Assembly: GCA_000697055.1 (NCBI GenBank)
Contig: JNDT01001870.1
Coordinates: 1-64,000, forward strand
Reading direction: 5' to 3'
DNA: 64,000 nt
Source: Saksenaea vasiformis B4078
Lineage: Eukaryota > Mucoromycota > Mucoromycetes > Mucorales > Saksenaeaceae
Shown one piece after another: positions 1-49,063 of this stretch. The notes under the pieces are model-generated. The model saw only the letters and a list, made by a program, of their open reading frames with translations, was not told the origin of the DNA and searched no databases. The first letter of the stretch is position 1. Each line of letters starts with the position of its first letter. The translations under genes and the position numbers were made by a program.

Positions 1-1286
1 TCCTACAATAAACAATGAAATTGTTTTTGCATAAGGTTTATAGCAAGAAACCATTCCAAAATCGGTAAAAGCGATATCGTCTCTCAAAACAAGATAATGG
101 ACGGAGGCATAGATATCTGTAAAATTTTTGAATTCTAAACCGATTACTATCATTCGATCGTTCGATTGGAAACGTCATCCTTGAAAAAGAACACAACAGA
201 GAAAATCGTTGGTAGATGTAAATGTTTGTAAACCTTAAGTACTCTGTGTAATCAGGTGTTTCTTCACGCTATGCATACGGCGATTGCCCTATTTAGACTA
301 ATACACAGTATGCTGGTGTCTGTTTTCGGTAACCTTGTCAACACAGATGGTTGAAAACAGACGGGAAGAATTAATGGGAAACTGTTCTGAATCGTATGTG
401 ACATTATGTCATGAAGATTTCCATTCAAAGCGTACTAGAGGCCGCAGCATAAGCCCTGCTTCGGCTGTGCTATGGGTAGGAGATGTGACCTATTTTGCAA
501 AGTCATTGCACTAAGTAAATTTGAAAGTAGTAGATTCCAACTGTTTCCGAGCTTTTATGCTTTAACTTTCTTTAGCTGTTTAAGTCTGTGATCAAGGTAT
601 ACCTTCCAAATAGTGTTTCTTCTTGCTGCAGTCCTTAATACCTAGTAAAGGCTACATTAGCAGGAGAAATCTGCACGAATTGGATTCATTATTGTATTGA
701 GAAAAATTGAGCAACATTATGATCAGCTGTTGCAGAATCAGAAATATTAGCGATTTCTGCATGACTTGATTTTCCTTGCAGCATGAGATCATTTCGGAAA
801 AAAAGAAATTTATTCGATCCTGCACGATGATCAACTCTACATATCAGAAACAACAACCTCTAAATTACGGAGGATAAACGCTTTATCCTAGCAAATATGT
901 AAGCGTTTACTTTCTTGTAAACTTCTAGCAACTATCCATTATCTTTATGCGATCCTCTGGAAATGTACCTTCTTTTTTCATCCTGGATCTCTTGTACTTT
1001 TAACAAAGCAAAAATATTAGTATAAATAAGTATAGATAGAAGTGACCTGTGTCTTTGTGTAACTTCATCATGTCCTGGTCCAAAACAAAGTTTTCTTCTG
1101 GCTTACTCGATGTACCTAGCGGGTTGGGAGGGATAATCCAAAATTTATATAAGAACGTGACTCAATCGCGAAAAGCACAGTAAAGCACTCATTCTTCTTC
1201 TATTTCTCTTACTATACAAGTAAACCAGTGGACAAAGTCCTTCTCCAAATTGTCAGAGGGATTTCTTCCTCTGTTTTTTCGCTGAA
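1..1286. other. Intergenic, no gene recognised
   Basis: I see no convincing coding segment here: open frames are short and show no family motif. The right end contains the promoter region of the Fanzor relic. The left edge may be the flank of a gene outside the window. Confidence 0.5.
1144..1153 (+). promoter_or_regulatory. TATA box upstream of the Fanzor relic
   Basis: The string TTTATATAAG lies about 135 bp upstream of the first ATG (1287) and is followed by a pyrimidine-rich stretch, as in a fungal core promoter. This suggests the relic once had, or still has, its own promoter. Confidence 0.4.
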
Positions 1287-4200
1287 ATGCCTCCAAAAAA
1301 GTTGCAAAAAGGGTAAGCTTGTAATACCAAGCGTATAACATTTGATAATCGTTAATGTACTTAATAGCAAAGGGAAGGCTGTTGCTACCAAGAAATCTCC
1401 AACTCCAGTAGACTCCTTAAAGTCGGAACAGTATCATTTCACAGTCTTCTAATACGCTCGCTTTTTTGTCTAGTGGGTCTGATGATGATTCACAACTACA
1501 ATTAGCCGTCCAGCTTAGCCGTCAGAGCCACATGCTATCATCCACCGTTGCTGGCCCTTCCTCTGCTGCTGGCCCTTCCTCTGCTGCTGGCCCTTCCTCT
1601 GCTGCTGGCCCTTCCTCTGCTGCTGCTCCTTCATCATCCGCTAGCGATCATGATTACTCAGGGATGTCTAACTTGCAAATAATCTTACACAAGAAACGCA
1701 AGAAGAAGGAAAAACTTGACGAACTTGAACGTAAAAGGTAGGAACTCGAACAGCAGATACAGCAAGGTAAAGCGCAAACTACCATAATTTATTAGACCGA
1801 TTTATTTATTTCGTATTAGCACTCTGCAAATGCTGTGGAAGGGCAGGCCATCGCGATGCACGAAGTAGGAGTTGCCCACTTAATAAAAGATTCGATCTAA
1901 TGCGCAGGAAGGTAACTACGCCATACGTGAGTTCGAAGATAAGTTATTTATTTTGGATCCTATAGACAATACTGTTGCTGGTAGCTCTCTTTCCACCCGT
2001 AAACGAAAGTTATCACAAGTCGAAAAAAATATTTCGAAACAAGCGAAACAAAGAGAGAAGCGTCGGAAAACAGCAGCAATCCATAACGTAGCATCAAATC
2101 GATGCAGCAGCTGCCTGGAGAAGGGAATTTATCAACAGCAAGTACCACATGGTTCACGAAGAAGACGGCACTGTCCTGATCACACCAAAACATTAAATGA
2201 ACGACTCAAACGTTTACTGGGAGAAAAGCATCGGCGCTTTGTTCGGAAGATCGGATTAGACACGATATTGCGTTTGACAGGACATCAAAAAGACCAATTT
2301 ATGCAGCATATCAGTAATCTTGTCGATTTCCAGCGCGAGGTGGCGATCGAATCACAGTGCTTTGCAATGTATTACGTTCTACAGTTACTCGACAACAACC
2401 AAGAGATGCCAGCGATAGTGTTTTCTCAAGACTTTTTCTATGCATGTATGCAGCTTGTCTTGGGAAGGAGATATCACCAACAGCAACCGGAAATTACCTA
2501 GAGAAGACATGACAGAATCTTTCGCCGCATTCATTCGACAATTTCCTCATTCTCTTGTAACGAGACATTACCCATATTCCCATGCATTGACGTCGTTAGC
2601 CGTACAGTCAGCTACTATTTTCACGAACTCCGTTACCGAAACGTTCGAATCTCGCGCAATCAAATACTTTCATTTTAGGCTGAGAGACCTTGTAGAGGTA
2701 TGTAGATATATTGTCATTACCGTTATGATTGACTCATACTCGTATGTAGGATATAACAAAGAAAGACGCCACTGCACTGGCTGGATATATCTACGACTAC
2801 TGTGCGGGTGTTACGGTCCCCGAGTGGCCGGAGGCTGTTCAGCATTCTGAAGACCTGCAGATTGCAGTAGAAGAAATAATTATCAGCTTCGACTCTGTGC
2901 CCCGACCAATCAATCTGGAAAATATATCTGCGCAGCCAGGAATATACCTTCGTAGTCTATATGACATGCTACAAAAATTAGAGGCGTATAACACGCAGCA
3001 AACGGAGCTTGCAGAAGAGATCCAGACGGTTGCAACTCGAAGCTGGGCATTTGCTTTGATTCGGTCCATTGAAGAATTCTATGTACTTGGTCGTCGATAC
3101 CGATCACGATTAGTGACAAAATTGTGGAAGCTGTCAATTCATCTCAACCGACTCATCTCAACGCTGAGCGTTTATCATTCGAATCTCTTGAATACATACA
3201 GCATACTATTGATACCACTCGAGCTCAGATCAGCAATTCAATCCAATACCATCGTCAGATTGAGCAGTCCGGTTCGAGCAACATCGCTCGTGAGAACTGT
3301 TTTTGCCCTGAATCATTTACATTTGTCCAACAACAGAAGGTTTTCTCTTTGGTGCCACAGTACAGTTTCAAACGCCAATATGCCAGTATCGATATCCAAA
3401 CCCTTCGACAATTGCTTCGTCAAAGTGGCGTTCAGTTACTACATAGTGGGGCTCGCCAACAGACACAAGAGCAACATAAGCAAGGTACACGACAATTCGC
3501 AGCAGTCTTTGACTTCAACAAAATTTGATGCAGAAGGTAGTTAATATCTGGACCAAGATCATTTACTAATAAGCTCTTTAGTCTCTTAGAGGACCTTGAT
3601 TTGGATGAACCTCGAGAACTGTTCACAAACCTCGTAAGAACAGACGGTTATGCAATCGACTTTATATTTGCTCGCAGAACAACAGAGGAACAAGACTTAC
3701 CAGATCTGGACGCCACAGACTTTGATGAATGGGAGCTTAATAACGTATTCGACTTATGGGGAGCTGACCCGGGGATGACGGAGATTTATGTAGCTAGTAA
3801 TGGTCATAGTACAGAACCTCATGAAATTCGAAGATGTCCACAGCAGAGTTTTATGTCATGGCTGGGTACAAGAAGACGAATGCGAATATCCTGCGAATGA
3901 AGCGCGAAAACGATATACTTGCAGTAGAACAGGAGATCACAACGCGAAAGACAGCAAATCCAGAGACAATGGCAACGTACCTCGAATCACTATTGCCAAA
4001 TCTGGAGCAGCTATTTGATTTCTATGATGAAAGACTTGCAAGTCTCCGATTCTTGAACTATATTGGCAAGCAGCGGGCTGAGGCTGAACTTATCAACATA
4101 CTGCTTGATGGTGGCAAAGAATATAATCTACGCGGTCTGAAACAGAAACGGAAGACCTGGAGGAAGAAGAAGCAGCAAAAGTATGTGCCTTTCAAATTGT

Positions 4201-4775
4201 AATATGAGCTTGACTAACTTTTTTTTTTATTTTCATGTATAGGACACGGGCAAGGGAGAAGAAGTATGGCAGTTACACTTATTGGCAGCGCTGTTAGTTC
4301 TCTTTGGTTGGTAGGCGTTCACGATCACAGAAACAGAAATGGCGAAAGGCACCACTACGGCCAATGCCAGACAGGATCCCTTTGTTGCATTCGGGAATGC
4401 CACATTCCAAACGAACATGCGCGGCAAGATCTCTGGACTGGCTGACCGCTGTCGAGTTCTCCCGAAAAAGGCAGAAAATGCCGGTTTACTTGTTATGGTC
4501 AATGTGGACGAGTACAACACGTCAAAGGTAATATTGACCAACACATGGAGACACTCCATATTAACGAGGATACTTAGGTGTGCTCCAGATGTCAGCAGAA
4601 GAACATGGAGAGCTTACGACTGAACGAAGAAGCGTACGGAACGCTGCATAGCGTGCTCGGTTGCCAAACCTGTGGCACATTATGGCAACGCGATGTCAAC
4701 GCCAGCAGAAACATACACAAGCTTGCAACATGCTCGTCACTTGGTCAAGGCCGACCACTGGTGTTTCAACGCTGA
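1287..4775 (+). pseudogene. Decayed Fanzor (eukaryotic TnpB-like RNA-guided nuclease)
   Basis: Fanzors are the eukaryotic homologues of transposon TnpB, RNA-guided DNA nucleases with a RuvC domain. Diagnostic blocks are all present in order: a block ending SFKRQYASIDIQTLRQLL (about 3360-3420), TDGYAIDF (about 3640), RuvC-I GADPGMTE (Asp codon 3766-3768), RMSTAEF-like block (about 3838), GNATFQTNMRGK (about 4392), RuvC-II VDEYNTSK (Glu codon 4510-4512), a zinc ribbon CSRC..CQTCG, and RuvC-III RDVNASRNI (Asp codon 4692-4694). The N-terminus is a poly-AGPSSA stretch, a basic coiled coil and a CCHC-type knuckle (CKCCGRAGH...CP, about 1824-1880). Plausible introns are 1313-1367, 1431-1473, about 1774-1819, 2698-2749, 3536-3581, about 4181-4242 and 4528-4577. 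The frame is broken: in-frame stops at 1739, 3526 and 4312, and one-base shifts near 1887, 2490, 3100 and 3838. The 3838 shift cannot be explained by splicing. The family call is firm; loss of function is inferred. Confidence 0.9.
1550..1621 (+). repeat. Four 18-bp tandem repeats in the Fanzor N-terminus
   Basis: Four identical copies of an 18-bp unit (GCTGGCCCTTCCTCTGCT) encode repeated Ala-Gly-Pro-Ser-Ser-Ala. The perfect identity of the units means a recent expansion by slippage inside an otherwise decayed gene. Confidence 0.95.
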
Positions 4776-4891
4776 TCATATCTCGCTGTAACAAAAACAG
4801 TAGATGCTTACAGGTAAGCCTTTTTTTTTTTTCATCGAGTATTTTATTGACAATTTTTTTGTCAGGTGACTGTAGATGACAGCAACAATGA

Positions 4892-5197: not shown

Positions 5198-6050
5198 ATG
5201 ATGCGCGTTCGTGCGTCACACGTACAAGGATGAGGAGTAAAAAGTACCAGCAGCATCCATGCAGTACCTTCTACTTACGGACCAGCTTCCGATCTTAGTA
5301 GGGCATAAAGGAACAAGAATGCAACTTCTGTCTCAGGCTGATCAAGAAGAGACACGATCGGACGACGTCATGAGAGATATTGTGAATGGAAATGCATGCT
5401 AGTCCATAAAACATCTATTTCGAATTAGTTAGACATGGTTATCATTTCTCGTAGGCGGGTCTACTCCAGGTCCAATTTGCGCCAAGGAAAGATTGGACTT
5501 GTGTTATTACTTCATCAACTTTTGTCAGAGGATCAAATAACTTACGTGAACTTGGACCTTCCAATGGACATAAAATCTATTCAAGCAGCATAAAAAAATT
5601 CCTGGTTAGTAAATGGAATAGTGCTTGGATGTCATCTTACTTACCCCCGAGGGGTATTGCCACAATTTTAAGGCATCCGGCCATCGAACCTGACTCGGTG
5701 GGGGCGGCTATAATGGACAATGACTTGCGTGGAGCGGCCACGTCTGGATGTGGTGACTGCAGAGGACTTGAAGCGATGCAACATCTGGCGAACTATTCCG
5801 GAAAATGAGTGATGCTGAGTGCGTGACAACATTTACTTACTTGAGTGAAGGGCGCAAAGCACCAACACAGCCAAGACAGTTTGGGACAGAGGTAATGCAG
5901 TCTAATCGCTGAACAAAAAGACATGAATAATTTTGTATGTATAAATATTGACATCCTTACCGGGGATGTTAAGGATAAACAGATCCAAAGGGAAAAAAGA
6001 AGGAATTCATGCGTTCCTTTAAATACAGATCCTTCCGGATGAAACCTGTT

Positions 6051-6195
6051 CTTATCTTGAGATATTTTTACTGCTTTCCGAAAGGATACTGAAAATCCAT
6101 CATTGAAGTACCTCGATGAGACATTTTCCTTATCTCGAGATACCTTTCCTCTTTCCGACGGGGTACTGGGAACTCATCACTGAACTACCTTAATG
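6051..6195. repeat. Imperfect direct duplication, about 70-78 bp unit
   Basis: Two adjacent units begin CTTATCT(T/C)GAGATA at 6051 and 6129. They share CTTTCCGA, a GATACTG or GGTACTG block, an (A/C)TCATCA block and an A(A/C)TACCT ending. Divergence between copies is substantial, so the duplication is old. Confidence 0.6.
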
Positions 6196-9100
6196 CAAAA
6201 GTCAGGTTGTCCAGGTGCAAAGTATACCTTGGATTACAGTAAAATGAACTCTTTTCACTGCGCAAAACATCGTCACTTCCAACGCGAAATTATTACACAT
6301 GAACGTCGGAGGATATCTAAATGACCCAAATGCTTGTTCAAAATCTAGTAATCTATTGCGCAAATGTGTTTTAACGAAATTGGGAAGCTTCGCTTTCACT
6401 ATTGAATTGAACACGTAGATTTAACCGTAATGGTAGCAAATACAGTTAGTTTCTCTGTACAAAGGTAGTGGATACAAGATGAATACAACCGAATTCCAGA
6501 CTTTTTTTTAGTTGAATTGGGCGTGAGTGCGTGAGGGACACAGATATGATCACGCACTACATGCTATCCCACATTCTTGAAAACAACATGAATAAGCGTA
6601 TAACTGCATGTTCTACACCGAGACATCGAATATTCTATGTGAATACTACATGCAGAGGCAATATGTAGGTCTTTAGACAACCTGTCATCCCGGGGGCATG
6701 ATGTCTATTTTGAAAAAAGCGACTGCCATGTCATCATTGTGCGTTTCTAAAGAGGCAGCCTGATTCTTGACTGGTTTACTGCATCCACGGAAAAAAAAAG
6801 TGTAGCTTCTGTCGGCAGGTTATACATATTTCGGTAACTATACTCTCTTCTGGGTCGATAACGTACTAGACACAAAATCACAGGAAGTGCAACGCAGTTT
6901 CTTACCTGATGACCTTAGCATATACGCTTTCCGGACGAGGGCGTTTTGCAGGACCCTAAGAGTACCTTAGATGATATAGGAACATAACAAAGTGTGTTAT
7001 CTCGATCATCCTAGTGGTATCATATACAGCCGCCTGTGAGCGAAAGTCACTAGCATGTGTACTTGAATCTGATCAGACAATGCTTACAGCTCCCGAAGGA
7101 CTTGCAGCTCTTTTTTTTTTTTATAAACACCCACAATGTGATGCTGTGAGTGTGCAACAACCGTCAACAGATAGCAGATTCAGAAGCTCAGTATCAAAAC
7201 TTATTACGGTGGGGTCACTTACGATATATAGCAAATAAGCCCAACCAGAATACGGGATGGCGAAGACCAAATATGAATTTGAGTAGCCATCACTACGGAA
7301 TTTCCATTGTTGGAAGGTTATCAGTTCAACTTATCTTAGGTAAAGGTACTTCCTCTTGTTTCTCGGTAAGGACAAATAAAGGCGATAATCTTATCAAGAG
7401 CGTATTACACAACAAGCATTGACATGCAACGGGCAATAATAATAAACCATTCGGCATAAAAGAAGAAGCTGTCACTGCAAGTAAGGCATCCCGTCATCCA
7501 CAACTCGATGCGTCGATGATGCGGCCCACATGTAAAGAGGATCCTGAAGAATAAGTTAGCCAATGACATTATCGGTAATAAAGGAAATGTTGTCAAGGTG
7601 GATGTAGTTTAAAGATTAAATGAAGAGGATAAGAGTTTGCTGTGAATGGCAAGCGGACAGGAAACCTCTCTTTAGACAAGGGCATTTAGGAATGAGAACA
7701 TGTCCTGCCTAAGACAGAGAACTCTTCAAGCCCAAATTATGACGAGCGCCTTAGTGACTAATAGAATCTCAGACATCAAGGACACCTTATGTAAACCGGA
7801 GCAGATATGGAGCGTCCTTTCTAAAACAGCGAATTCAGTATGCCATTCTGGTAGAGAAATTGTGGAGATGCATAAGCCATCAGACACTTACATGTAATCC
7901 GAAACCACTGTCGATGGGAAAAGGGTACCAGTTCGTCTATTGCACGTCTACGATCATACATGGATCATCGTCCACAACCGATCCAATATTCAATCTGAGG
8001 GTAATAAGCGAGCCATAAGTTGTAGATGATGTGTCACATTATAGTAATGACATGGTGAAGGCATGTAAATCATTATTACTTGTAATCCTAGTAGTAAAGA
8101 GAAGACTTCTAATGTTCATTATGATTAATGCCATGAAGTTGTTGAAACCAGCTACATGGATGATTATACATTTACGCCAGCGATTTTTGAGATCATCTGA
8201 CTAACACATGTGAAAATAAGTCCCGAGGAGGCAACAACGACGCCATGTATGGTTTGTCTGCGCATAAAGCATCATCCGCAAAAGATGAAGGATATGGGAC
8301 TAGAGAATTGTATAGCGTTAACGTGTTCATATATACTTGATTATACGGAAGTGCAATGCCGTAGATAGCTTCATATGTAAATGTACCTTTTATCTCCTTT
8401 AATATACTGCACAACCGTGCCTCCATTATTTCGCTGCGATATTTGATTCTGATCATTATCTTGTATTTGTATTCACAGAAATGTTTGATGAGGTATGTAG
8501 CTGTGAGAACGTTGTAATGCTGTCGTTTTGAAGTAGCTGCTTATAGTTCCACCAGGAAAGCCGAAGGTTAGCGATAGGAGTTGCGATCCAGACTGATACA
8601 GATCCTGGCACACTTTTAGGCCCTGATAAAGGAAATACGTAATTGGTTGCCAATGTAATATTTTGCGAAAGGTGGCGCTATTGCGAGATAAGGTGCATTG
8701 TAAGGCTCGCTAGAAGTGACTGACGCACTTGCTTGTTGTCCATATTTTTGCTCTGAAATAGGATACGTGCATGATATTTGCTATCCCTGAGAAGGCATTT
8801 TTACACATTGTAATCCAACATTGGCCCAGATAGCTACCTTTTTACCTGTGCACAGCATTGAGAGTTTGCAAAAGTCTTATCAAGCAGACCGTACAACAGG
8901 TACAGGAACACAGGTCCCCGGAACTAATTCTGCAGAAACAATACAAGTTCACTTTTTTTATTCTTCTTCACCAATAATAGCATATTTAATAGACGCACTT
9001 ACTTCAATCATGCGTTTGCGAAAGTAAAAAGGGAAGATAGGATTGTCAGCAATCTACACACAAACGGTGTATTGAATGGAGAGGCAATTATAGGGGTAAT

Positions 9101-22590: not shown

Positions 22591-25500
22591 TTAATTTTTA
22601 ACTTGAAGACGTTCAACTGGGAACTTCTTAGCTAACCAGGTATGGAGAGGACCGAGAACAACCAACCGTTCGTAGGCCAGACCGGCGAAGATATTACCGA
22701 CACACAGACCCCACAATTTCCAGCGGAAATCTTGTGGCATGACGTTGTGGCCGAGAGGAGTATTGTATGTTTCGATGTATACTGGTGGAGGAGTGTAGCC
22801 TTCCTTAGTCAGCACTTCAGCAGTACCACAGTTGAAGCGGAAGAGACAACCGAAGCGGTTGGGATCGGCCAATGTCCAGTAAGACACGATGGCAATATAA
22901 AGCAACCATAAGAAGACAAGAATGTAGTTTCTCCACCAGCTTTGACGGAACTTGTAACCAAAGTTGAAGACGGCGGCATTGTTAATGAACTGGAATAGAC
23001 AAACCAACGCCAGAACCTCAGCTTCATAATTGTCCGCAAGTAACCACCACTTGGAAATATCCACAGCGCTACTGTCAAACTCATTGCAGCGGAACCAACC
23101 TAAAAGCATCATAAGTATTATGTCTTCTTCATGAAAAAAATGTGTACACTACTCACTTTGCTTGAACAACATGACGAACGCACCAATCAAGAAGAGCCAG
23201 TTGATTGCAACCAATCCCATACCAGACGCCAACGTTTGAGGACCAAGAAGACGAGCTGTTGGGCGTTGGCCTTCCAGGCGTTCAGCAGCCTTCGACTGAG
23301 ACACGGCCCAGGTCAAGAGAACGGTAATCAGGACATCGATGGCAATCCACACGTTTTGAGACATGGTCACAGAGAAGTAGAAGGTGAAAATCTTTAACAT
23401 CATCATGACTTGTCCGTACAGAATCAGGTACTTGTAGCCAGTGATAGAAGTGGCCAGTGCTCCTCTACCTTGGCGGATCAATTCAACGCAGGACTTGACG
23501 CTACGGATGCTTGTGCTAAATGGAGACACAATAGAAGCTTCGGCATCGGACATAGCAATACCCACGTGGGCAGCACGAAGAGCACCACAGTCGTTGCCAC
23601 CGTCTCCTGTCATTGCTGTGATACCACGTTCCATGTGTAACTGGATACATTGAACCTTGCCATTTGGCGTCATACGAGCAAAGACACGGATGTCCAATAG
23701 GTATTTGCGAATAAGATCACGATTCACAAGCCAGTCGAAAGCCTTTCCGGTGACAGCAAGTTCAACAGGGATATGGTCTTGGTTAAGCAGATAGTCATCA
23801 ACGTTGAGGTCATGGAAAGTCTCTGGTTCGTCTACGTCGGTCCACACCACGCGATCTGAACTCTTGTCATAGTCGCCCAAAAGTACACGCGAGTTTGAGT
23901 CTGCCATGCCGCACTGACGAGCAATGTAGACACCAGTCAATGCAGTATCACCAGTAATCATGATGGTGCGAGTGTTACCACGCTTGAGTTCGGCGATGTT
24001 TTCAGTGGTATCGGGTTTCAATTGGTTCTTGAAGATAACCAGACCAACAAAGTTGATATTCTCTTCCATCTGATCACGAGTCCACTGGCGGAAACCTTCA
24101 AGACCACCCACTTGGTCCAAATGAATTTCGCGGTGAGCCAGTGCAAGCACATAGCAACCTTGACGAGCCAAGTTGGCTGTAGCTTGATCATAGTCAGCAG
24201 GGAAGGAATCCGGATTAGACAGGTCTTTGATCTTCTCATAAGCACCCTTGACGAAAATATGAACTTTGTTTGTATGGGTATCCAGAACAGCAACGGACAT
24301 GGACATTCTAGCGTGAACAAATTCGAATCGTTTCAGAACATGGACAGGAGCACTGATTGCACCAGGCTTTTCCATAGGAGGAGTCAGTGTATCGACATAA
24401 TGGTCATCGTCATCGTCTGTGTGTTCCTTCAACTGCCACTTGGAAGAGCGGAACATCTCAATATCCACAGGGTTTCCAATAAATTGGCCGTTCAGCGTCG
24501 TTACAGCATGACAAGTAGCGAGACCGATCTGCATCAAGCGCGGCATATCATGCACGTTGTCCATATGAATATCAAAGGCGGGAGCAGTGCCATTGGCTCT
24601 CTGTTCAACCACCTGATCAACGTCCGAGATAGGCTGGGCTCCATAAAATTCAAGACCCTCCTTGGTGAGAGTACCCGTTTTATCGAAACAGAAGAGCTGA
24701 ACCTTGCCGGCCATCAAGATACGTGGGAGATCGACACAATAAATCTTCTTATCTCTCAGTCGTCCTGCAGCGACAGACTGACCGACAACCAATGCAGCTG
24801 GAAGCAAAGGAGAGACAAGCTGACAGATTGCAAACATGGCATAGAACCAAGCACCTATAAAAGAAAAGGTTGAGCTGCTTCCATACTATAAAAATCTTAG
24901 CACTTACTTGTTCCAGAGACATAAAGCCAGATAGCAAGACCAAGACAAACCAGACCACAGCAAAGCAGGATCAGGATAACGATCTTGATTTGTTCATCAA
25001 AGATAAAGGACACACGGGTGGGGAAGAGGATTTTCTTGACCAGCTCACCCTTATCAGTGGCGGTTCCGGTCTGGGTTACAAGGGCGGTAACAGGTCGACC
25101 GTGCTCCGTTGGCTGTGCTTGTGAAATCGTAGTACCGGAGAAGATGGTGGAAATTTTTCCGGCGCCCATGCGTTCGTAGGTGGTATCGTCTTCCCGACGA
25201 AGAGGGAACTTGCGAATAGGAAGGGGTTCACCAGTAAGCGAACTTTCGTCGGCCACAATATTGCCACTCAGGATAACGGCATCACAAGGGGTCGTCTTGC
25301 CTTCAGCCACCTCAAATACATCACCGGGCACAAGATCAGCTGTAGACAAAGTTTTCCATTCACCATCGCGTAGGATCTTAACCGCATCAGTAAATTCGGC
25401 CATTTTCTTGATACGTAGCTCGGATCGAAGACGCACGACGACCTTGACAAAGGCAGACACCAAGATGACAGCCGTATCAGCAATACCAACCTGCCCTGTA

Positions 25501-30130: not shown

Positions 30131-33100
30131 ATGGCCAATGTGCAGATCGACGCAAAGCGATTCCATAGAAGAACAAGATTCCTAATTTCTCAATGGAAGG
30201 TACGCTATTGCCTTGTAACAATTCTGCTTTTGGGAATTGTAGCTTTGTTGGGCTCGAGATTTAGTTGGATCCAGCAAAGCGTGGTGGATAGCTCATTATG
30301 CTGATTGTTTGATCTTTACGTAGAGTCCTTCCAACGTGGAACTATTTCACAATGTCGACGCCATTCTTTTACTGATTGGAGATGACAGCGATGAAAACAC
30401 ATACCGTAAATCGGTGACCACCATGGTAAAGCTAAAAAAAAAAGCCGGCCAGGATGCTTGAGCGTGGTCATGCTGATCAGTGTCTTTGAAAACATAGACC
30501 TATCTTTTGGGTTTTCCCTTTCAACAAACATTGATGTTGCTCACTCAAGATAAAGTAACATTTGTATGCAGTGCAAGAAAGGGTGAGTCAGGATATATTG
30601 AACGAGGAGCGCGATTCTCACGATCCAAATGCAGGTGACTATTTGGAGTCGCTCAAGAAAGGTGACAAACAAGTGCCAGTTGATATTATCAGACGCAACA
30701 AGAATTCAGAGGAGAACATACCGTTGTACTTACCCTTGATTGAGGAACTGAATGGCGTAAGCATCGTGTTTTGAGCTTCCATGGAGAAAAGTACATCTCT
30801 GACTTTTTTTTTCAATGCATACCAGAAACGTGTTGGCATGATCACCAAAGACAGTTTTGAAGGGAAAAACGTAGATGAATGGAAAAAGGCACTTAGCTCT
30901 TCCGGAAAGAGCTTCGAATCAGTCGACATTGCTTCTGCCATTTCCGCTTGTCTGGCTGTTAAAGATGAAGAAGAAGTGGTACGTTGATTCTACAGCTGTC
31001 TTTGCATCCTTATGTAATCTGTTTTTCTTTCTGCAGAGAAAAATGGGAATTGCTGCCAAGCTCAGCTCCAACATGATGAAGTATTACTTCATGACTGAAA
31101 TGGAGGGCATTGTGGATGCAGAAAAACCTGTCAAACACGAAACTTTGTCGGAGCAAGCAGAGAATGTCTTGGAAGATCCTAAAATGGCGAAGAGGATTCG
31201 TATGCCTCCCGAGGTGAATGTCGATGAAATAGGTCAGAGATCATCATAACTGACATCCGAGGGAATAGGTCGATAACATTGATGATGTCGAATGGTGCTA
31301 CAGTCCGATTATTCAAAGTGGTGGTAAATACGACTTGCGGCCTTCTGCCATGTCCAATTCGGATAAGTTACATCCTGGTGTTATTGTCTGTTCGATGGGT
31401 GTGCGTTATAAATACTATTGTTCCAACGTCGGAAGAACATTTTTGATCGATCCAAGCAAAACTCAGGAGAGGAATTACGAGTTTCTAGTGGAATTGCAAC
31501 ATCGTGTATTGGAAAATATTCGTGATGGCGCAAAGATTAAGGATGTATATCAGAAAGCTGTGAATCATATTCGAGCGAAACGACCCGATTTGGAAAAGCA
31601 CTTTACAAAAAGCATCGGCTTTGGAATGGGCATTGAATTTCGCGAGGCCAGCTATCTATTGACAGGAAAGAACGTGCGAGAACTGAAGAACGGAATGGTG
31701 TTGAATCTTTCATTGGGCTTTGCTGATCTGGAGAACCCTAAACCTGCCGATGAGCGCAGCAAAATCTATTCTCTACTACTCGTGGATACAGTACGAGTAA
31801 CGGACGATGTGCCCATGGTATTGACAGAGTGCGGCTCAAAGTTGAACGAGGTGTCCTACTTTTTCGACAACGATGCCGACACCACAGCTACGGACCAGGC
31901 AGTGAAGCCTCCAAAGAAGGAAAAGGAATCCAAAACAGCTATTTTGAGAAGCAAATTCAGAAGTGAGGAACAAGATGAAGAATCACGCGAGCAAAAACGG
32001 AAAGAGCATCAAAAGCAGCTGTTTGCGCAGAAGCTTGCCGAAGGTCTCGCCAAATTCTCGGAAGCTGCTGAAAACGGCGATGCTGAAAACAAGGTTGTCT
32101 TCAAAAAGTTTGAAAGTTACCGATCTGACGCGAAATTACCCCGTGAAGTTCGCGAACAAAGAGTAAGATCGATTGTTTCCTGGCCTCATCCAATTGATTA
32201 ATCCGTTACTTTTTATAGATTATTGTGGATAAGCGAAATGAGTCCGTTATTCTTCCCATTTACGGCATGGCTGTTCCCTTCCATATCTCGACTTTGAAAA
32301 ATGCAAGCAAAAGTGATGAAGGCGATTTTGTCATGCTACGTTTGAACTTTTTGACCCCTGGACAGGCTGGTGGTAAAAAGGAAGATATGGTGCGTAATCT
32401 GAATTCGGCTGGATCGATTTTAACATTGTTGGTAGCCATTTGATGACACAAACGCCACCTTTGTGCGAGCACTTACGTTTAGAAGCGCAAACACTCAACG
32501 TATGGCAGAAATATTCCGCAGCATTACGGATTTGAAGAAGGAGGCAGCAAAGAAGGAGGCAGAAAGAAAGGAAATGGCCGACGTGGTTGAACAAGACAAC
32601 TTGATCCAGGTCAAGGGCAGACGACCTCACCGATTACCAGATGTCTATGTGAGACCGCAAGTCGACTCTAAACGTTTACCTGGTGAACTGGAAATCCATA
32701 CCAATGGTCTACGGTATCAATCTATTCGAGCGGATAACTCCTTCAGTAAGCTATTCATGCTAACTGAAACGCAAATTAATGGGTTCTCTGCTGCTATTAG
32801 ATATCCTGTTCAGCAATGTGAAGCATTTGTTCTTCCAGCCATGTGATAATGAATTGCTGGTTCTTATTCACATCCACTTTAAGAACCCTATTTTAATTGG
32901 CAAAAAGAAAACAAAGGTAAAAAAAAAAAAAAAAAACCCCCCGTGCAGCTATATGATATTAATTATACCATCCTTCAGGATATCCAATTCTTCCGTGAAG
33001 CCTCAGATATACAGTTTGATGAAACAGGAAATAAGCGAAGGCGACATATTTATGGCGATGAGGATGAATTGGAGTCGGAACAGGAAGAGCGAAGACGACG

Positions 33101-37844: not shown

Positions 37845-40017
37845 TTATGGTTTCACGACAGGTTCGCCATTGGCTGCCGTGGACATCATATCAAGTGCTT
37901 TTCGGAGATTTTGCGCAACCAACGCATTGGAGCTAAGGTCATAGGAGCCAAACACTTGTTTCCACCATAGGTACCATTCACCAACTTCATCGTAATTGAC
38001 ACGGCTGCGATCGAGCGTTAACCATCGGTAGAGAACATCCAACCACTTGCTGAAGAATTCATTGTCCAAAAGCTGACCCATAATTGTTTCTGAAAACATA
38101 TCTTTCCACGCCAAACACCAGATCAGTGGTTCCAATTGTTGATCGCGCGGGTTTACAATAAATTCGCTTCGGAGCACCTGTGTCAAACGAGGTAAAATGG
38201 TTTTGACAAGGAACCCTTCCATTTGTGCTGGGGTCCAGACATCTTTCCATGGATGAAGGATGTGATAAGCCGATTCGTCTGATGGATGCCATTGCCGCAG
38301 CACAACGGCCAATTTGTGCCGAATATTAGTGAACACGTCTGCTAGTCGCCATGCCTGCAGGACTGGCAGCCAAGGATGCAACCACGTATGGATCATCTCG
38401 GGATCGTTGCGGGGGTCCCAATCAGACACAGCCCGTGTGATTTTTGGTAAAAGAAGTTGATTGATAATATTTTCAAAAATAAATCGAGGAAGAACAGGCG
38501 GTTGCCACGCCTCTAGTAGTTGAATCATGGTGTCTGGATCGCGGATATCCCAATTATTACTAAAATTATTGTAAGCGTCAAATGGATGGGTATCACAGGA
38601 AATCAATCACTTACTTGATGGCACTTCGTACTTTGGCGAGCCAAATCGTATTCATCATCATTTCATAGGGCGTGGCGGTCAATGGTTTGTGGTTCTTTGG
38701 CAAACGTATACGATGTGTTCCGTTTGGCTGATCTACTTGCTTATCGTCGTTGCAACGCAGTAACCTGCGCCATCGCTTGACATCGTTCGCACCCCAGGTC
38801 GGCTCCGCAAGCACGTCCCAGTGCACCATTTTATATTTCATCACAGGAGCCCACACAGCCACTACCAACGCATCAAGGCCTAACGATTCTACTTGTTCCA
38901 GATAATCTGTCTCCAGTTTTTCGAAAGCATCGCCGAACAAAGAGGATATATTGGCATGCTCGTACGCGCCCGTCGCAAGAGCGTCTCTGGAGATCCGTTG
39001 AAGTTGTTGTGCAATCGCATTGGCTTCTTCCAGTTTCTCGGTTTCTACAGCACCGATCGTGCGGCGCTCTTCAATGGTATTCAGTTCATCCGTCAGCGCC
39101 TTCATACGGAACGTGTTTGTTTGTTTCTCTCGAGACAAGTTCTCCAAATCAGCACGCGATAAATCAACAAGAAGACGTAAATTATGTCGCAGCTCAGGCA
39201 ATCTCGTCGTTGTTTCCATCAACGTGGGTGATTCTGTCCGTTCAATCTCGGACAGCTTCACTTCGCGTATAGTAGGACCCCGCATATCAATAACTTTTTG
39301 CTGTGATAGCGGTATCTCCTGTCCGACCGTATCTGCAACGATCTGTTCCGCAGTTTTGTATACTGTTTTTGGTTTGCGTGGTTTACGTGTGTCCCTTTTC
39401 CATGCTTCGCGTTTTGCATGAACAACTGTTTCTTCTTCCGACTCTGAAGCTGACTCGTCCGATGTCTTCCCTCGTTTGTGCATGGCCTTGTCCTGGTCTG
39501 TCCGTTCGTCAAAACCACGGAAACCCATACCCATACGTGCTGGACGCTGTTTTGTCTCGACAGGATTGATGATACCCTCTCCCTCAGCACCTAGACCTTT
39601 GCCTAACGACCAACCCATCTTTTCCAGCATCTTCTGTCCAAATCCTTTGGTGAACTTGTTGAACTTTGCGAAATCAGACGCGGGCGTAACTGGTCGTGAT
39701 GGCGTTGATGAGCCTTCTTTGCTTTTCTTTGCGACCTTTTCTGTAGCCCGATTGGTAGGTTTTGGTGAATCGCTTCCCAGTCTGAAATTGGGACCCATTG
39801 AATTACTCGAAGAACCTAATCCGAGTCCTCCTCTAGGCATAGATTCCTCATCATCGCTGTCTTCTTCGCCAAATCGTCGTTGACGTTTACGTACTCCAGA
39901 AAATCCGCTCAACTCCTCTTGAAGATCGTTCTCGGTAATGTCAAAGTTAATACGTCCTGCTTCCTCCTCATCTGACGAATCACCGCCATCGTTAATATAC
40001 TTTTTGCGTCTGCCCAT
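37845..40017 (-). CDS. TFIP11: G-patch splicing factor TFIP11/Ntr1
   Basis: TFIP11 (yeast Ntr1/Spp382) recruits and activates the DEAH helicase Prp43 to take apart the intron-lariat spliceosome. Two exons, 40017-38615 and 38559-37845, give 705 residues. The acidic N-terminus (INFDITENDLQEELSG) matches the TIP N-terminal domain. A G-patch lies near residues 121-165 (KGFGQKMLEKMGWSLGKGLG, then EGIINPVETKQRPARMGMGF). The C-terminal half is the GCFC domain, rich in Trp-Pro repeats (LLEAWQPPVLP, HTWLHPWLPVL, LHPWKDVW, YLWWKQVFG). The N-terminal exon is long for this region (1403 nt), and the only intron is 55 nt. Confidence 0.95.
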
Positions 40018-41453
40018 GTTGAAAAACCAGATTCGTTGTCGGTAATGGCCTGATCCAGCCCTTCAACTGCGGGATTTTTTACTGGTGACTTTGCCTTACG
40101 TGGAAAATTTATTTTGCGCTGGCGAATGGGACTGGGGTTTGGGCCGACTCGGGGAATCAGAGGAAAGCAGACTCCATGAGCAAGAATGAACATCCTATTC
40201 CTTGCCGCGCACATACTTACGCAGGTGAATGTTTAAGAGCAAGGGAAGTGGATTTTAGTTACTTGTGTAAATGTTCGAAATCTTCAGAACCATGTTAAAA
40301 TGTATACCAGCGTGCATATCCCACAAAGGACAATATGTGTGGACAGAAGTGTACTTGGAAGATGAGATACATGCGTCTACAACCTATCGCGGAGAGGTTT
40401 CCTCTTATTAGCCGAAGTAAAATCCTTCGAGGTGATTACTATAAACTAGTCGATTATTTCATACGTTGGACGGCAGACATGTAGTAAGGTCTACCAGTAT
40501 AGGGGAAGCCTATTGCTTGTGGTATGTAGCCATCCCACTGTTCCTAGAGTTTCCATGATGACTAGTCCCATTGGCAAGTAGCTGTATGTACAGACTCAAT
40601 ACATGCGATCTCCTATGTCGACAGAGTCAATGGAGATGCTCTGCTAATTAGAATGGTATAACCTGACATCGCTTCGATCAACTACCCATACAAAGATGGA
40701 TCAGTGGCAAGGACTTTTCATTACCAATACGCTATGGAGTAGTTTCTATGCGTGTTTGATGATATTCTGGCACCGAAACACAAAACGCTGCAAAGAACAA
40801 CGCGTTGGATTGCACAGTGTATGCTCAGAGTAAAAGAACTATCTGATGCACTCCGACTATGGCGATAAGCGATTGTACCATGGCTATCAATTTGAGCATA
40901 GATGTTCGAAAATTAACTTCTACTGACTGCCCCTCTGTATATTTTTGTAATACGGCATAGCGGTATCAGACGTTTCTAGGGCAGACCTGAGATCCCAGGC
41001 TAGGTTTTCTTGATTCAATACTTTGGACCTCGCGACAAAATCCGTTCACTTTATCGTCTGAGACTTGGCTTTTTGACGGCACGGAAAGTTATGACAAGTT
41101 GCTCAAATGTCAATTAATGGAAGTATTACTCGACTAAAAATGACCGTGGTGTAAGAACATATGCGTCCTTCGACGTACCTGTCCTGTTTCTCAGGAAAAA
41201 AGAACGCAACGCTGGATTCATTTCTCGCACTGCACCTTATGCCGGTACTTCATCTTACTTGACTCATAAACTCCATTAGCGTTAAACCTCTTTCTTCGCT
41301 CAACACGTATTCATACCTTTGAGATCTAAATGCAAGATGGCTGCTTTTTTAATTACACCGTTTGAGAACAAAAAGGTCGAGCACGCGCGCAAGTGACGTT
41401 TATTTTGAAGGCCTGTTGTTGATTTCAGTGACATTTCTCTTGAATGCACAACA
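40018..41453. other. Intergenic, no gene recognised
   Basis: Only short open frames are present. The left part holds the TFIP11 promoter; nothing else is identifiable. Confidence 0.5.
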
Positions 41454-46461: not shown

Positions 46462-49063
46462 TTACATCTGATTTTGGAGGCATGCTAAAAGGATCTGTTC
46501 GCACTGACGAACACGTTCCGGCGTAGTGATTTGAGATGTCATAAGGTAGATGACATTGCCTAGCGGTCGAGCAAACAACTGGATACCACCCGCTCCTTCG
46601 AATTCACCATAACGCATCCGTTGAATGATGGACTGAGAGATCATGGATCCATAGCCTGGATAACACGTTACACACACACACGCTCTATTTCTTTCCTTTT
46701 TTTTTTGTCTTGTATAGTTTACCTTTGTTTTCGTCCTTGAGTTCTACCGCCAACACTGATCCAAGAGACATGACACTGTCCACCTGTTCCAGACGAGACA
46801 ATCTGTCGATGGTATCGCGACTCCACATGGACCATACAGTGCTGTCTTTCCATTGATCACGGAAAGGAGACCATGATCCATCAGGACGTGCTAGCTGATC
46901 GAGGATGTCAATTGACTTTTTAGCAACAGCACATCCAATAGGGTGTGCCGTGTAAGAATGGCCATGCAACAGACAGCCTGGTTTGTTATTCGAGAAGAAA
47001 GTATCAAAGATGGATTGCTTGGTGACAGTCAATGCCAGTGGTAGCAAACCACCTGTCAACGTCTTTGCATAGGATGTAATGTCAGGTGTCTGTATATGGA
47101 TGTTAGTTTACTTTCTTCGTTCTTCTGCGGAGAGAGACATACCACACCCAAAAATGCTGAGGCGGATTGACGACCTAGTCTGTACCATCCAGAAAAGACT
47201 TCGTCAAAAATGACAGGCAAACCCTGCCATCCTTCTTCCTTCTCTTTGCTTGAATAACCTAGGATCTCGGCAGATTCCCTACGGACGGTGTCAACCAAAA
47301 GACGTTGGAAGAGGGGATCGACAAAAATCATGCCACCAGCACCCATGATAACAGGTTCCATCAACAAAGCGCCAATATGACGTCCTTGAGATCGCAGAGT
47401 GTGGAGTTGTTCGCGGATATAGTTTTCATAAATCGCTGCCAGTTCTGGATCACGGTCGGCGCCGCGCTGATCGACCGTGTAAATGTCGCTTAGTGAAGCG
47501 TAGGGAACCTCACGTCCCTGACTGGATTGGGAAATGATTTCACCAGGCACGCGAATAGAAGCACGGTCCTTGGAGAAATGGACGGTTGGAGGTTTCAACC
47601 AATGACCACGGGGCTTGTACCATTGAACCTGGTCATTGTACACATTGGGAGAGCAAGCATCCATGGCACCGATGGTGTCGCCGTGATAGCTGCCGTCGAT
47701 AGCAAGCACGTCGATCGCCGCATCGTCGGACCAACCATAACGCTTCGATGCGGAGCGTAAAGCCATTTTGAAGGAAACCTCCATGGCTGTGCTACCGTTA
47801 TCCGAGAAGAACACACGCGAGGCCCATGTATCCTTTTCCAGGACCTTTTCAGCCAAGGCGAGCGCTGTCTCGTTCGTCGCTTCGGGGAAGATAACATGGC
47901 CGTAACGACCAGCCGCATGGGCTGCCGCCAGGGTCAGTTCGGGGTTTGCATGGCCTAGGCCCTGGGTCCACCAACTGGCACAGCTGTCAAACATTTCTTT
48001 GGGCTCCAGTTGGCCATCTTTGGGAGAGTTTCTGTAAGTCACAAAGTTATCTTCATGCGCGGAATCGATGACTGTCACGTTCTTGACATTGCCATGTTGT
48101 GTAAACGGCCACCAGAAGGTGTCGCGGGATTTTTGCGCCATTGTCTCGAGACGTGCAAATCTTGCTTCATGCTTCTGGTCCAGCCGCTGAACTACAGGCA
48201 AGAGATATTCATCGAGCTGTTCATAATAAGCTGCCATCGACTTTTCCTCGAGCACAGGATCTTCCAATGCAGCAGGTGGCGTGGGGACAGTTGTCACGTC
48301 GACGTTGTCCAAGCGACGTGCTAACAGGTCATGGTTACGATAATGCTGATTGTCGAAAAGAAGGATTTCAGGAATATCATAGCCTCGTAGCAGCAAGGAT
48401 TCATACGCAGTACGTGTTGTAGAAATCCCACCCAGGTTGCTATCACCAATTAGAATCGTTGGTAGCCGTAGGGGACGATAGAAGTCGACCTGTGATGTGC
48501 CTTCAAGATGACTAAGCGCCTTTTTCTTCTTCCTTTTATACTCTTTGTTTTACCAGACATGACAGGACTATGGATGCCTCCGGCTGTCTCGAGGAAAAGC
48601 GAACCACCCTGCTTCGCATGGCGAACGTATTCTAGAATTTTCTGCTTTGTATTGGCCAGTACTTGATCATCCGCTGGAGGCTGAAGCACCATCTCTTTTT
48701 TAGATCTTTCTCTTTCATTTTCATGCAGTGACTTACATGAAGCGTGGCAATATGGGGGCTGACGGGGTCTGGATAGGTGTAAAGCGTATCCGTCTGCACT
48801 GAAGATGTGTACTTTGCGACGTGTCTAGATAGACAAGGCTTAGGCAAGGAAATAAGCGGGGAAATGGATTACCGTTGGTCGCTGTCGACAGGATAACCTG
48901 TTTGCACGGGCTTCAGATAATAGACGTGTCTATTTTTTTCTTTGGCAGCTAGGGCGGCAGCTCTGCAGAGACCTGTAGCAAAAACAGTCTTGCCGACATT
49001 CGTGTTTGCCGCAAAGAGCTGGTACGCCTGGAATGCACGAGTAGGGTGGAATGGCAAGGACAT
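46462..49063 (-). CDS. BIO3-BIO1: Bifunctional dethiobiotin synthetase / DAPA aminotransferase
   Basis: This fused enzyme catalyses two consecutive steps of biotin synthesis: KAPA to DAPA (PLP aminotransferase) and DAPA to dethiobiotin (ATP, CO2). Six exons (49063-48873, 48824-48737, 48692-48554, 48500-47143, 47089-46723, 46655-46462) give 778 residues. The N-terminal BioD part has the P-loop ANTNVGKTVFA, YYLKPVQTGYP, SPHIA and LETAGGIHSP (usual VEGAGG). The BioA part has WWPFTQH, DSCASWWTQGLGHANP, FFSDNGSTAMEVSFKMALR, GSYHGDTIGAMDA, VIFDEVFSGWYRLGR and the PLP lysine in SYAKTLTGGLLP, then LHGHSYTAHPIGCA. Order BioD-BioA equals the plant BIO3-BIO1 fusion. It is divergent from BIO2, 939 bp away. 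The acceptor of exon 3 could be 12 nt further on. Confidence 0.96.

Follow-up and report, generated by a model that had tools for sequence, protein, structure and literature searches.

The window, meaning the whole 64,000-nucleotide stretch of Saksenaea vasiformis B4078 DNA analysed here, carries a decayed, intron-containing Fanzor1 gene at 1287-4775, confirmed as a member of that family by descent and as a dead copy. The gene runs from an ATG at 1287 to a TGA at 4773-4775, and the following features were read within it.

1287-4775, plus strand: intron-containing Fanzor1 pseudogene, its frame broken at least four times (near 2422-2500, 3118, 3850 and 4345-4396)
3766-3768, plus strand: RuvC D codon GAC, in ADPG within LWGADPG, read from the sequence
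4181-4242, plus strand: probable intron GTATGT...TATAG, read from the sequence
4510-4512, plus strand: RuvC E codon GAG, in VDEYNTSK within VNVDEYNTSK, read from the sequence
4528-4577, plus strand: probable intron GTAATA...TTAG, separating TSK from the zinc ribbon, read from the sequence
4578-4772, plus strand: exon with the zinc ribbon (TNB) and the last RuvC D, PF07282 at 28.9 bits

The original prediction of a Fanzor relic at this locus had named three RuvC acidic codons and a zinc ribbon ahead of RuvC-III, and these motifs were found in place. The codons at 3766, 4510 and 4692 read GAC, GAG and GAT, the last of them (4692-4694) lying in LWQRDVNASRNI (QRDVNA), and a C4 zinc ribbon, CSRC...CQTC, lies upstream of this last RuvC D. 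Both ADPG and VDEYNTSK are present in the window copy, and we take the E of VDEYNTSK to be the alternative E of Fanzor1. A DPG signature together with an alternative E marks Fanzor1 in a figure legend from the accessible part of PMC10711439. The Fanzor1 motif order given in the accessible text of PMC3627910, D-X(125,275)-[TS]-[TS]-X-X-C4 zinc finger-X(5,50)-RD, is matched by D at 3766, TSK near 4519, CSRC...CQTC and RD at 4689-4694, with a D-to-TSK spacing of ~230 residues that was estimated with one intron removed and with motifs read across frame breaks. This motif order and the DPG place the window gene with Fanzor1.

Searched alone against Pfam, the zinc-ribbon exon (4578-4772) matched PF07282 (Cas12f1-like TNB) with E=1.3e-6 and 28.9 bits against a cut-off of 26.3, and the other nine window pieces given to this search returned no match to Fanzor/TnpB models. 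The same locus scored 24.5 bits, below the cut-off of 26.3, in the six-frame genome search, where the reading includes intron bases and one stop. NCBIfam TnpB models matched the zinc-ribbon exon weakly (3.1e-5 and weaker, far under their full-length cut-offs) and gave no match to the D-block piece. L089 is a related copy whose exon proteins aligned to window 1962-4766 with E-values down to 2e-74, indicating that the Fanzor resemblance is not due to chance. Frame shifts fell inside four L089 exon blocks when these were aligned to the window copy, and because of these four frame breaks we regard the copy as dead, as had been proposed.

The expectation that E-values would clearly favour Fanzor over other RuvC families held only in part: the exon passed PF07282, but a profile search of solved structures, built from the C-terminal block of related copies, ranked a mimivirus TnpB-like protein best (6.2e-7), followed by TnpBs and Cas12s, all above the solved Fanzor chains (SpuFz1 0.083, GtFz1 0.93 and PpFz1 1.1). 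The 788-residue joined L089 protein matched no solved-structure chain at E<=10, and none of 8000 candidates scored in a search with the joined L089 Fanzor protein reached E<=0.001. When viral contigs were searched with an L089 exon, four stretches fit the pattern and none was confirmed. At the level of sequence, the window family appears to lie at a large distance from the characterised Fanzors. Taken alone, the window copy is an ordinary relic. Its N-terminal Fanzor part also contains an 18-base tandem repeat (1541-1627) that encodes Ala-Gly-Pro-Ser-Ser-Ala units.

The coordinates originally proposed span the gene, and the element that carries it extends from before window position 1 to 4874.

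1-4874, plus strand: Tc1/mariner-type element, family A, with its left part lost at the contig start
4851-4874, minus strand: right terminal inverted repeat (TIR) including the TA at 4873-4874, from copy comparison

Comparison of left and right termini identified Tc1/mariner-type TIRs with TA, TACAGTCACATGACA on the left and TACAGTCACCTGACA on the right. The left end in other copies reads TACAGTCACATGACAAAAAATTG and lies ~1.93 kb further left than the window start, or ~3.4-3.5 kb further left in two longer family A copies that keep the DDE part of the transposase, and 17 of the 18 right ends listed reach a terminus like GTCAGGTGACTGTA. Transposase domains sit outside the window, in other family A copies, with PF01498 in their left part (5.2e-19 and 7.3e-17) and PF13358 above cut-off in five of them (C658, C387, C325, C254 and C274). 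Nine matches of the family A left part cross the DDE deletion point. The idea of an element without a DDE domain, suggested by L039, was rejected, as L045 and L047 show the deletion to be limited to some copies. The window Fanzor1 is cargo of a Tc1/mariner element that encodes a Tc1-type transposase in other copies. This cargo status, the sharp right end, the ghosts and a one-sided insertion-site signature all go beyond the original prediction.

Elsewhere in the window, a second repeat (5469-6352) starts sharply at 5469, ~600 bases to the right of the Fanzor element, and has 75-83% matches starting at 5469-5472 on 15 other contigs. Host genes were recognised at 23149-24885 (HAD-type hydrolase domain, presumably a P-type ATPase), 31269-32201 (M24 peptidase-like domain, which we take to recall Spt16), 37845-40062 (G-patch/GCFC splicing factor) and 47056-48549 (class-III aminotransferase).

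When the 38.7-Mb genome was searched at the DNA level, window 1-4882 had matches on 24 other contigs, among which contig-end pieces may come from one copy. The original prediction had raised the prospect of intact copies elsewhere in the genome; relatives proved to be many, but an intact copy of the window family was not seen, since every one of seven long copies inspected (L010-L014, L089 and L091) is interrupted by one or more frame changes or stops, L014 also being truncated by a contig end. Between family A and a relative, A2, one ~260-codon block gave a dN of 0.36-0.37 with saturated synonymous sites, which indicates that purifying selection acted on the lineage for a long time. Comparison of four A copies gave a ratio of 0.32-0.99, on few changes.

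Fanzor/TnpB-like loci are abundant in this genome, and some, in families other than that of the window, have TNB exons within open frames of several hundred codons (450-770). Genome-wide, 150 places out of 388 candidates were scored for PF07282, with 19 of the 150 below cut-off, and PF13358 gave 157 matches. A second Tc1-Fanzor family (B), with the TIR TACACTACCCC[CT]GAAAAAG, is exemplified by L071 (C428:161500-170500; right end at L071:6426), and its four long copies (C428, C29, C33 and C74) are 97-100% alike, so they moved or duplicated recently. A third Tc1-Fanzor family (C) comprises L003, L005, L006 and L007, with right ends GGAAAAACTGTA or close to it.

Family A also includes ghosts that share a single pair of breakpoints.

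1410-4099, no strand: ghost deletion breakpoints, common to C633, C551, C575, C641, C471, C404 and C583

The window copy retains the 1410-4099 interval that is absent from the seven ghosts. Since breakpoints 1410/4099 are common to all seven, the ghosts go back to a single deletion that removed most of the Fanzor, after which the derivative multiplied; they are the counterpart of the ghost loci reported for Spu-1. Among them, the left terminus was read for four copies, C633, C551, C575 and C641, and the right terminus for five, namely C633, C551, C641, C471 and C404.

Reading the insertion sites of families A and A2 revealed AG immediately before the left TA at 19 of the 20 left ends that could be read, the exception being C282, a Fanzor-carrying copy with AC. 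The counterpart of this motif, CT beyond the right TA, was present at 2 of 22 right ends (Fisher p=1.7e-8), and in another Tc1 family one end out of 25 had AG (Fisher p=1.6e-10 in comparison with the A/A2 left ends). The four ghosts whose left terminus was read have AG there too. The 20 left flanks share no similarity with one another, the base preceding AG varies (T 11, A 6, C 2, G 1), and the background frequency of AG before TA within the window is 481/7523. A search with the pattern TACAGTCACMTGACA, which does not require AG, returned 27 places, and all 10 A-type left ends among them have AG.

These left-end counts cover retrieved matches only; C387, C405, C334, C205 and C121 (L060, L061, L065, L066 and L067) were dropped for unreadable termini, and a left terminus is missing from L040, L044 and L090. 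The control Tc1 family gave 49 matches, of which 29 TIR-like ones were scored and 25, those with no more than a single TIR mismatch, were kept; the 20 matches outside the scored 29 have at least two TIR mismatches, and 10 of these 20 start with AG, which the search pattern itself favours. That the control family lacks Fanzor was judged from the ~1.35 kb span of three paired copies (C504, C586 and C626), which is too short for Fanzor. We rejected the idea that the AG-bearing A2 subfamily is Fanzor-less, as Fanzor exons are present in C391, C282, C104, C358 and C633. Left ends in family B have AG at C63, C145 and C29, and AT at C201 (Fanzor-bearing) and C300. Shorter family B relatives have GT, GG and TG, the size evidence for their lack of Fanzor being C538 only, whose paired ends are 1.36 kb apart and thus too close for Fanzor. 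A/A2 follow the AG rule clearly, whereas family B gives a mixed picture.

The AG before the left TA could reflect a target preference of the transposase that is unrelated to Fanzor. The A/A2 copies with read left ends all share a related transposase, no sister element that shares these ends but lacks Fanzor was found for comparison, and the flank in family B varies by subfamily and could equally track the transposase. Target preferences of Tc1/mariner transposases are generally symmetric around TA, so a motif this strongly confined to the left side counts against such a preference, as does the scarcity of AG at the ends of the other Tc1 family, and we consider this explanation unlikely.

Empty sites bear on whether AG instead belongs to the left end of the element itself. 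When the joined flanks of five copies were searched, unoccupied paralogous sequence was found for two, and one of three empty-site comparisons was clear. In it, the empty site at C602:309 kb contains AG, with an alignment score of 141 for AG plus one TA against 130 without AG; close alternatives scored 140 (AGTATA) and 138 (AG only). TA is present at both ends of the element, and at this site a single TA scored 141 against 140 for TA twice. The other two comparisons, C602:236 kb (140 vs 139) and C353 (71 vs 70, and also 71 with nothing added), cannot discriminate, AG is near-fixed, and Saito et al. describe the CA of Spu-1 as conserved upstream of the inverted repeat (IR) without deciding the matter in the accessible text, all of which would suit a motif carried by the element. 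Against this stand TIR symmetry, which puts each end of the element at TA and leaves AG with no counterpart on the right, the AG in the clear empty site, and the AC of C282. We therefore find it very unlikely that AG belongs to the element and assign it to the target sequence with moderate confidence.

A precedent for such a motif comes from Spizellomyces punctatus, in which two extra conserved bases, CA, precede the left IR of Spu-1 in both Fz and ghost loci, and the measured TAM of SpuFz1 is CATA (PMC10432273, accessible text). SPu-1 has a putative TA duplication in the accessible text of Bao and Jurka (PMC3627910), and the SPu-1 of 2013 and the Spu-1 of 2023 are presumably the same element. 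Because CA plus TA in Spu-1 equals the SpuFz1 TAM, AG plus TA would by analogy be the TAM of family A, giving 5'-AGTA as the predicted TAM of its Fanzor. What is new here is the AG flank signature at the left ends of the family, which gives a TAM prediction for an uncharacterised Fanzor lineage. In the literature accessible to our search, which took in few subscription papers, no earlier one-sided-flank or TAM analysis was found for a Tc1/mariner Fanzor.

The right end of the element contains features that could form the scaffold of a guide RNA.

4785-4801, plus strand: hairpin, candidate guide-RNA stem, covarying and with a nearly invariant loop, from a covariation test
4809-4813, plus strand: TACAG, complementary to CTGTA at 4870-4874, from the fold
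4875-4889, plus strand: predicted guide stretch in the right flank, with a length borrowed from the guides of S. punctatus (14-15 nt) and SfAV (about 15 nt)

The hairpin was chosen after the fold was seen and was counted in 12 of 19 extracted right ends (6 distinct), in which 100% of cells were paired and two of five pairs had changed on both sides. Its covariation score was reached by 4 of 500 shuffles, its changed-pair count by 189 of 500 and its pair-type count by 66 of 500. Minimum-energy folds pair TACAG with CTGTA at the extreme right end, so that the TIR and TA would belong to the RNA scaffold, and upstream complements also match the families' own ends in family B (TACACT) and family C (TACAGTT). 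Folding energies were not below those of shuffles (z -1.01, -0.92, -1.00 and +0.17), no convincing consensus fold emerged for the right end as a whole, and Rfam at gathering thresholds gave no match in the window. We infer that the hairpin and terminal stem 3' of the stop codon are a candidate guide-RNA scaffold.

What is conserved from the stop codon to the right end might instead be a 3'-UTR intron (AG/GTAAG ... TTTTTTGTCAG/G), as A and A2 have sequences resembling splice sites and family B has comparable ones. We find this rather doubtful as a replacement for a scaffold: the covarying hairpin lies upstream of the proposed intron and is not explained by it, the complements are specific to the TIRs of A, B and C (any single one could be chance), and the guide RNA of Spu-1, in the accessible text on that element, sits between the stop codon and the right IR. 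The intron reading concerns the RNA part only, and it can coexist with the scaffold reading.

Taken together, we think it probable that the window holds a dead member of a Tc1/mariner family that combines a Tc1-type transposase with a Fanzor1 needing the predicted TAM AGTA, and in which emptied sites are recut. The observed part of this explanation consists of the Fanzor1 motifs, the TIRs, the transposase elsewhere, the copy number, the ghosts with one deletion and the left-only AG. The transposase of living copies would cut and paste the element into TA. The Fanzor nuclease would need the TAM 5'-AGTA, retained on the left of the emptied site, and would cut that site, after which the element would be copied back from the sister chromatid. 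Correctly oriented insertions beside AGTA, including those of ghosts served in trans, would persist, since emptied-site cutting would let the element be copied back. The one-sided motif would then arise from the nuclease recutting emptied sites.

More broadly, we tentatively raise the possibility that Fanzor cutting via its TAM decides which DDE-transposon insertions persist in a eukaryotic genome, trans-served ghosts included. The role of Fanzor for its transposon is unknown according to the accessible discussion of Saito et al. (PMC10432273). The many separate Fanzor-Tc1 insertions, together with the one-sided motif, the ghosts and the comparison Tc1 families, make the cut-and-copy idea testable from sequence. 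AGTA is a TAM prediction made ahead of any assay for an uncharacterised Fanzor lineage, and family insertion sites and right ends yield testable predictions of both TAM and guide RNA.

Several known systems share parts of this organisation. PUl-1, PUl-4 and PGv-1 are, like family A, Tc/mariner elements with Fanzor1 as cargo; they have TA duplications and occur with or without a transposase gene. Unlike family A, they are Pythium and algal-virus elements, and the accessible text mentions no left-flank motif (PMC3627910). PpFz1 of Parasitella parasitica is likewise a Fanzor1 from a Mucorales fungus, but its TAM is reported as ATN (PMC11423790) and its match to our C-terminal profile (E 1.1) is not significant. 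Fanzor1 of SfAV resembles family A in belonging to a non-IS607 transposon with TIR and TSD predicted in the guide-RNA scaffold, and its guide comprises about 15 nt beyond the TSD; it differs in being virus-borne, in a transposon family left unassigned in the accessible text, and in that its RNA was measured, whereas that of family A is predicted (PMC10711439).

Spu-1 of S. punctatus also has a Fanzor1 (SpuFz1) between TIRs with a putative TA duplication (PMC10432273 and PMC3627910, accessible text). Two conserved bases precede its left IR, CA where family A has AG, and its gene-less ghosts keep the right-end RNA region (PMC10432273, accessible text). Its TAM CATA was measured, whereas AGTA is predicted from sequence for family A. 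Spu-1 is a single-ORF element of ~2.1 kb, for which the accessible sources report no transposase found between the IRs; in family A, by contrast, the Fanzor gene has introns and a Tc1 transposase is recognisable in other copies.
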